From the NCBI GenBank assembly GCA_001295865.1, contig LJHW01000043.1:1-64000 (forward strand): 64,000 nucleotides of DNA. Reading direction: 5' to 3'. A model generated the notes under the pieces. It was not told where the DNA came from and searched no databases. It saw nothing but the letters and a program-made list of their open reading frames with translations. This document shows positions 36,410-42,417 of the stretch, in pieces. The DNA comes from a beta proteobacterium AAP65. Its GTDB lineage: Bacteria; Pseudomonadota; Gammaproteobacteria; Burkholderiales; Burkholderiaceae_C. The first letter of the stretch is position 1, and each line of letters starts with the position of its first letter. Made by a program: the position numbers and the translations under genes.

Positions 36410-37117
36410 TCAGGCCTTGCGGCGACGCGCCAGACCGGCCACGGCCAGGCCACCGGCCAGCATCATGGCCCAGGTGCCCGGCTCGGGCACCAGGCTGCCT
36501 TGCACGATGAACGGGAACTCCACGCCCAAGCCGTCACCGGCGTCCACCACGCCCGCGAAGGCGGCGTTGGCCAGGCTCTGCTGCGCGTTGCCGAAAGCAC
36601 CGTCGGCGGTGGGCGGCTGCCACGGGCCCGAGGCCAGCGAGCCGGTGATGCCCCAACGCAGCCAGTAGCTGCCGGGGGCCAGATCGAAATCAGCCACGTT
36701 CACGTCGAGGCGGAAGATGGCGCGGTCGGTGTTGGTCAGCGTCGTGGACGTGACGCGGTAGCCCACCAGCCCGCCGTTGGTGGGCGTGCCCGAACCCGAG
36801 GCCACCACGGTGCCGCTGGTGACGTCACCGGAGACGATGCTCCAGTTCAGGCCCGTGAAGGTGTAGGTGCTGGCTGCGAACGACTGGTAGCTGAAGAAAC
36901 TCAGGCTCTCCACCGTCCAGCCCGGGCCACCGACGGTGAAGTCGTCGGCCACCAGGTTGGGGATGTTGCCCTGGGCACCAGCGCCGAACAGCGTACCGCC
37001 CGCACGGATGACGGAGATGGGCGGCGTGCCGGCAACCGCGGCGCCGTTGTTGTACAGGTCGACCGCTTGCGCCGAACCGGCGGCAGCGATCAGGCCCAAG
37101 GCGATGATCTTCTTCAT
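36410..37117 (-). CDS. PEP-CTERM sorting domain protein
   Basis: 235 aa exported protein with signal peptide MKKIIALGLIAAAGSAQA and a C-terminal sorting signal: VPEPGTWAMM, a hydrophobic helix, then ARRRKA (residues about 210-235). Such tails are recognised by exosortase/archaeosortase-type transpeptidases. The middle is a predicted beta-sandwich with many Gly, Thr and Ser and no catalytic motif. AGGAG lies 6 nt before the ATG. It is an orphan: the exosortase-associated genes in this window start 20 kb away at 57312. It is a plausible substrate of that system. Confidence 0.92.
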   Translation of the reverse strand: MKKIIALGLIAAAGSAQAVDLYNNGAAVAGTPPISVIRAGGTLFGAGAQGNIPNLVADDFTVGGPGWTVESLSFFSYQSFAASTYTFTGLNWSIVSGDVTSGTVVASGSGTPTNGGLVGYRVTSTTLTNTDRAIFRLDVNVADFDLAPGSYWLRWGITGSLASGPWQPPTADGAFGNAQQSLANAAFAGVVDAGDGLGVEFPFIVQGSLVPEPGTWAMMLAGGLAVAGLARRRKA

Positions 37118-38823: not shown

Positions 38824-41130
<2,307 letters not shown>

Positions 41131-41136
41131 GTTTGT

Positions 41137-41166
41137 CTCCGTGGCGTTCGTTGGAATGCCACGGAG
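41137..41166 (-). promoter_or_regulatory. Hairpin containing the maeB ribosome-binding site
   Basis: On the minus strand the arms CTCCGTGGCATTC and GAACGCCACGGAG pair over 13 positions (12 Watson-Crick and one mismatch/wobble-type position) around CAAC. The 3' arm ends in GGAG, 6 nt before the maeB ATG, and the 5' arm carries the complementary CTCC. No U-run follows, so this looks like a translational control element rather than a terminator. Confidence 0.6.
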
Positions 41167-41220
41167 ATTACTGCGGAAGCCCGCCGGGCTTGCCCGGCGA
41201 CCCCGCGCGTTGAAGCGGTT

Positions 41221-42417
41221 TCAGTTTTGCGCAGCGCGGCGGGAAAGGATCTCGAAGGCCGGCAGCGTCTTGCCCTCCAGCACCTCCAGGAAAGCGCCGC
41301 CGCCGGTGCTGATGTAGCCCACGTCTCTCTCGATGCCGTACTTGGCAATCGCCGCCAGCGTGTCGCCGCCACCGGCGATGCTGAAGGCGCTGCTCTCGGC
41401 AATCGCCCGCGCCACCGCTTCGGTGCCGTGGCTGAAGGCCTCGAACTCGAACACGCCCACCGGGCCGTTCCAGACGATGGTGCCAGCGGCCTTGAGCTGC
41501 GCGGCCAACACGGCGGCGGTGTCGGGGCCGATGTCGAGGATCAGGTCGTCGGGGCCGACATCGGCCACGGCCTTGACAGTGGCCGGCGCGTCGGCCGCAA
41601 AACGCAGCGCCACCACCACGTCGGTGGGGATGGGCACCGCGGCGCCGCGCGCCTGCATGGCGTCGATGACGGCCTTGGCCTCGGCCACGAGGTCGGGCTC
41701 GGCCAGGCTCTTGCCGATGGGCAGGCCCATCGCCAGCAAGAAGGTGTTGGCGATGCCGCCGCCCACGATGAGGCCGTCCACCTTTTCGGCCAGCGCCTTC
41801 AGGATGGTGAGCTTGGTGCTGACCTTGCTGCCCGCCACGATGGCCAGCAGCGGCCGCTTCGGGTGCGCCAGCGCCTTCGTGATGGCGTCGATCTCGGCCG
41901 CCAGCAGCGGGCCGGCGCAGGCCACAGGCGCGAACTGCGCGATGCCGTAGGTGCTGGCCTCGGCGCGGTGCGCGGTGCCGAAGGCGTCGTGCACGAAGAT
42001 GTCGCAAAGCGCGGCCATCTTCTTCGCGAGTTCTTCGTTGTTCTTCTTCTCGCCCTTGTTGAGGCGGCAGTTCTCCAGCATCACCACGTGGCCCGGTGCC
42101 ACGGTCACGCCGTCCACCCAGTTCGAGACCAGCGGCACCGTGAAACCCAGCAGTTCACCCAGACGCTCGGCCACGGGTGCCAGGCTGTCTTCGGGCTTGA
42201 ACTCGCCCTCGGTGGGGCGGCCGAGGTGGCTGGTGACCATCACGGCGGCGCCGGCGTCCAGCGCCATGCGGATGGCCGGCACGCTGGCACGGATGCGCGT
42301 GTCTTCGGTGATGCGGCCCGCATCGTCTTGCGGCACGTTGAGGTCGGCGCGGATGAACACGCGCTTGCCGGCCACTTGGCCCTGGGCGATGAGGTCGGCG
42401 AGTCGAAGGACGTTCAT
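41221..42417 (-). CDS. pgk: Phosphoglycerate kinase
   Basis: 398 aa glycolytic kinase. [16 protein letters not shown] is the N-terminal signature, HLGRPTEG, the hinge region and GGGDTLAAI with the ATP-binding tail are present. ATG 42417 has AGGAG about 7 nt upstream; the frame is open further upstream but that reading covers azlD in another frame. A minus-strand TAGAAT at 42443-42448 sits between azlD and pgk and could be its own -10, with a 19-nt leader. Confidence 0.97.

Follow-up and report, generated by a model that had tools for sequence, protein, structure and literature searches.

A hairpin over the maeB ribosome-binding site of a Rubrivivax-like bacterium, possibly a lock on read-through RNA from pgk

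The short gap between pgk and maeB in a Rubrivivax-like member of the Burkholderiales raises the question of why the ribosome-binding site of a malic enzyme gene should lie within a stable RNA hairpin, and which transcripts would be able to form it. The window (the whole stretch of DNA that was analysed, 64,000 nucleotides) comes from a host whose nearest named relative is R. rivuli, the MaeB proteins being 98% identical. On the minus strand pgk (phosphoglycerate kinase, 398 aa; 41221..42417) lies directly upstream of maeB (768 aa; 38824..41130), which we take to encode an NADP-type malic enzyme with a C-terminal phosphotransacetylase-like domain, and a 90-nt gap separates the pgk stop codon (41223-41221) from the maeB start at 41130.

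Folding, shuffling and genome comparison defined an inverted repeat at 41136..41167 (minus strand) that reads TCTCCGTGGC-A-TTC-CAAC-GAA-C-GCCACGGAGA from 41167 to 41136 and forms a stem of ten pairs, one A.C mismatch and three further pairs closed by a CAAC loop. The 5′ arm (TCTCCGTGGCATTC, 41154..41167) begins with the last three bases of a predicted -10 box, and the 3′ arm (GAACGCCACGGAGA, 41136..41149) ends in the ribosome-binding site, a Shine-Dalgarno GGAGA at 41136..41140 that stands 5 nt ahead of the ATG at 41130. A sequence-only reading of this DNA had placed the ribosome-binding site in a hairpin stem, which both the sequence and RNAfold bear out; the CAAC loop was also as it described, and only its stem length needed correction, by one additional U-A pair (10+3). 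The minus-strand leader from 41110 to 41240 folds at -58.9 kcal/mol (RNAfold; z = -3.9, with 0/200 shuffles as low), and the hairpin itself is present in the minimum-energy fold. Opening the ribosome-binding site costs about 11.2–11.3 kcal/mol, the highest value among 148 gene starts sampled from the window and 20 stretches of this genome (mean 2.9 kcal/mol, sd 2.0), and when the spacer was shuffled 200 times around a fixed -10 box and ribosome-binding site the lock gave p = 0.005, the lowest value that this number of shuffles allows. The genome contains no second exact copy of the inverted repeat; a search for its arms elsewhere returned only one single-mismatch 13-mer. We regard the locking of the maeB ribosome-binding site in a hairpin as confirmed in silico. 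A second GC hairpin (GCCGGGCAAGCCCGGC), also without a U-run, lies between pgk and maeB at 41175-41208 (minus strand) and was not seen where R. rivuli and a further relative, G031, were aligned to it.

The maeB hairpin does not look like a thermometer, nor like an ordinary switch. Its stem is followed by no U-run and a terminator scan between pgk and maeB was empty, in agreement with the earlier statement that it is not an ordinary terminator of pgk. The sequence-only reading had gone on to propose an RNA thermometer or a coupling to ribosome traffic from upstream, and neither proposal was supported. The computed probability that the ribosome-binding site is open is 0.004 at 20 °C, 0.010 at 37 °C and 0.039 at 70 °C, and a thermometer is unlikely because this value is only about 0.01 at 37 °C and, with the stem still shut, no higher than 0.04 at 70 °C. 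Known RNA thermometers of the ROSE and fourU types likewise bury a ribosome-binding site in a hairpin, but the maeB hairpin lacks a mismatched stem that would melt, remains shut in silico up to 70 °C and matches neither family; no Rfam family, these two included, reached its gathering score, and only weak chance matches were returned. Opening by ribosomes translating pgk was rejected since the pgk stop codon (41223-41221) lies about 53 nt upstream of the stem. No conserved ligand-binding domain of riboswitch type was found, there being no Rfam match and the letters of the loop and inner stem being variable, and a literature search for a maeB leader RNA or a maeB thermometer found none. More generally, a conventional switch acting on all maeB transcripts (a thermometer, a riboswitch, or an element opened by a protein or an sRNA) would require a true start upstream of 41167. 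The burial of the ribosome-binding site at -21 kcal/mol and the covariation of the arms described below would suit such a switch, but a stem too stable to melt (probability open at most 0.04 at 70 °C), the lack of any aptamer-like domain or Rfam match, the unconserved loop and the -10-like box within the arm all argue against it, and we consider it unlikely.

The position of the predicted maeB promoter offers a different answer. A de novo motif search found SSGTANNCT, which is conserved in Burkholderiales, upstream of maeB in about 73% of 102 orthologs, with a log-likelihood of 139 compared with 13–19 in shuffled sets, and in this genome it marks a predicted -10 box, TAATCT, at 41165..41170 (minus strand) that shares its last three bases with the beginning of the hairpin. 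The motif mostly begins 35–55 nt ahead of the maeB start codon and is present both with and without pgk upstream; its T, A and final T are 93–99% conserved among the maeB orthologs, a pattern characteristic of bacterial -10 boxes. A TTGACA-like signal peaks weakly at 17-nt spacing (z = 1.9), and no obvious -35 element was found in the upstream sequence of this maeB itself. With a median of 40 nt between the box and the start codon, maeB leaders should be about 27 nt long, and both the predicted leader length and the -10 box agree with mapped promoters of Burkholderia cenocepacia, in which the -10 box is TAnAAT and leader lengths peak at 21–30 nt (PMC4603805). Placed by the -10 box, the predicted transcription start falls at 41157..41159 (minus strand), inside the 5′ arm. 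As the box overlaps this arm, a transcript from the predicted promoter would probably begin downstream of 41166, the outcome that the sequence-only reading had itself named as refuting its proposal, and leave part of the 5′ arm untranscribed. An RNA that begins at 41158 retains just 1.0 kcal/mol of lock, as against 11.2 kcal/mol for the full hairpin, and its computed probability of an open ribosome-binding site rises to 0.80 from 0.01. From motif conservation and spacing we infer that the motif is an active maeB promoter with its start near 41158. In 41171-41178 and in relatives (L002-L195) the box carries conserved letters beyond a plain -10 element, wwnnGSNGTANNCT, namely A/T at -8/-7, then G/S at -4/-3 followed by a G; these possibly mark a regulator or a sigma factor preference.

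The best explanation of the hairpin, which we hold with about even confidence, is a read-through lock. RNA reading through from pgk would hold both arms, fold and hide the maeB ribosome-binding site, whereas RNA from the maeB promoter would begin inside the 5′ arm, form no stem and be translated; with the 5′ arm expected to be missing from the gene's own transcript, only pgk read-through RNA could form the stem. Malic enzyme output would then follow its own promoter and not that of the strongly transcribed glycolytic pgk, and a terminator between the two genes would be unnecessary. The computed support consists of the hairpin, covariation of its arms in four species, its recurrence across the genus and the -10-like motif over the 5′ arm; that pgk transcripts run through into maeB, and that the lock then lowers translation, are predictions of this reading.

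Comparison of close relatives suggests that the stem is kept as a structure. R. rivuli (L002/L147) and G031 (L083/L148) share the hairpin, with minor changes that are for the most part uncompensated, and within this closest trio, the present genome included, the 5′ arm drifts without compensation. A fourth genome, G069 (L149), which groups with the trio at an SH-aLRT of 100, has a perfect hairpin of 15 pairs in this position, built from different letters, TCTCCAGGGCACGGC ACC GCCGTGCCCTGGAGA. Aligned to the trio, it has both sides changed in 4/13 pairs while 92% of cells pair; this was matched by 4/500 shuffles and slid versions pair at 33–50%, in a test of four sequences in which each of the four compensations distinguishes G069 from the other three. 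The stem therefore appears, from these alignments, to be maintained in the four-species clade. The same comparison bears on a DNA operator, in which a dimeric regulator would repress maeB by binding a palindrome that takes in the -10 box as well as the start site. The palindrome does cover the predicted -10 to about +22, and GGCA/YGCC is retained in the four-species clade, but the arm letters differ between lineages while complementarity stays, and the half-sites have just one single-mismatch match elsewhere in the genome; we find an operator quite improbable. A more serious rival is that the hairpin is a neutral by-product, because arm homogenisation would mimic covariation. Here the -10 box (..TCT) and GGAGA would make a short near-palindrome, now and then lengthened or homogenised by template-switch mutation, and tolerated because the gene's own promoter yields transcripts without the 5′ arm. 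In favour of this, each side of the outer pairs belongs to a signal that is conserved in its own right, the arms are patchy and specific to lineages, and paired changes are also expected from homogenisation; we nevertheless rate this explanation as somewhat unlikely, on the evidence of the controls that follow.

Searching 81 genomes of the genus gave about 50 with a usable maeB leader, from which 42 distinct leaders were tested with the -10 box and ribosome-binding site kept in place while the spacer was shuffled. Complementary arms recur among these relatives, with a lock at p<0.05 in 9/42 leaders and low total energy in 13–15/42. The excess of locks gives Fisher p-values of 7e-7 with single-base and 3.5e-5 with dinucleotide shuffles (1e-5 and 3e-4, respectively, without L147 and L148), all of which ignore relatedness among species. 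This genus-only test was chosen after L149 had been found and after a mixed-genus test of 49 orthologs, with the clade of the present genome left out, had proved not significant (5/49, KS 0.26), and the controls were run afterwards. Against a neutral origin, the lock test was flat in 147 other genes of this genome (4%), in maeB paralogs (0/18) and in maeB orthologs outside the genus (1/31) that have the same -10-like motif. Seventeen genus leaders have locks of at least 6.5 kcal/mol, where about five are expected, and in 11/17 of them the ribosome-binding site pairs into the -10 box, compared with 34% among shuffled locks of the same strength (p = 0.009); the -10-like box overlaps the 5′ arm in the present sequence and in most strong-lock cases. 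The register of the outer pairs tracks the local ribosome-binding site, as TCTCC/GGAGA, CCTTC/GAAGG (G077, G021 and G086) or CCTCG/CGAGG (G026 and G078). This lineage-by-lineage tracking argues against a role in protecting or marking the 3′ end of the pgk mRNA, which would account for a hairpin that comes after pgk with no terminator between but which we consider hardly plausible. Locks are patchy within the genus, most members having no strong one, among them G100, which has pgk upstream. Outside the genus, two Xenophilus species (L050 and L056) have maeB locks of about 9.3 kcal/mol (p 0.055 and 0.03, respectively) formed from a TAGCCTCTCC arm, and in Caldimonas manganoxidans (L013) a hairpin of roughly 14 pairs ends just before the maeB ribosome-binding site and leaves it largely free.

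Across the genus, pgk lies directly upstream of maeB in 41/50 orthologs, and lock strength with and without an adjacent pgk did not differ significantly (5.6 versus 4.3 kcal/mol, p = 0.32). No terminator was found between the two genes in species with a strong lock, whereas the genus members that do have one there (G023, G062, G063, G064, G086 and G104) lack a strong lock, a contrast in sequence features that is suggestive and small in number. The wider proposal, that the hairpin is a Rubrivivax-wide, fast-evolving translational insulator in which a promoter nested in an arm lets the origin of the RNA decide malic enzyme synthesis, so replacing a terminator, is a tentative one to which we give slightly less than even confidence.

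Phage T4 and insertion sequences provide textbook examples of read-through locks. In IS10/Tn10 and IS200, as Davis et al. (1985) and Beuzon et al. (1999) are said to have described, RNA entering from external transcription pairs into a stem that covers the transposase ribosome-binding site. The predicted behaviour of maeB read-through RNA is alike in this respect, but those elements are mobile and their arms are fixed by terminal repeats, whereas the maeB arms diverge between species and belong to central metabolism. The T4 locks include gene e (lysozyme), soc, 49 and I-TevI (PMC3014915 section 29; PMC2988022). Long early transcripts of gene e fold shut, while those from the late promoter are translated, without the 5′ strand because the promoter lies in the DNA of that strand (PMC3014915 section 29), and the measured effect of the lysozyme lock is 100-fold (PMC3014915; PMC2988022). 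The arrangement predicted for maeB is of this type, with the ribosome-binding site hidden in the long RNA and a putative promoter in the DNA of the 5′ strand; T4, however, uses phage late promoters for timing, whereas maeB belongs to chromosomal metabolism and its predicted -10 box looks ordinary. A covarying lock on a chromosomal housekeeping pair would suggest that bacteria separate neighbouring genes by hairpins with a promoter in one arm, a separation that simple operon annotation and expression prediction would miss; -10 boxes inside anti-ribosome-site arms would provide a handle in searches for further cases.

Two other genes were noted in the course of the analysis. A second malic enzyme gene (G000:C1:99495-101780, upstream region L196) shares 64% identity with maeB and has no lock over its ribosome-binding site; its upstream box differs, reading CTACAATCC, and is kept in several relatives. 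Two genes downstream of maeB, a 235-aa open reading frame at 36410-37117 (minus strand) ends in VPEPGTWAMMLAGGLAVAGLARRRKA, a C-terminal sorting tail of the PEP-CTERM type.
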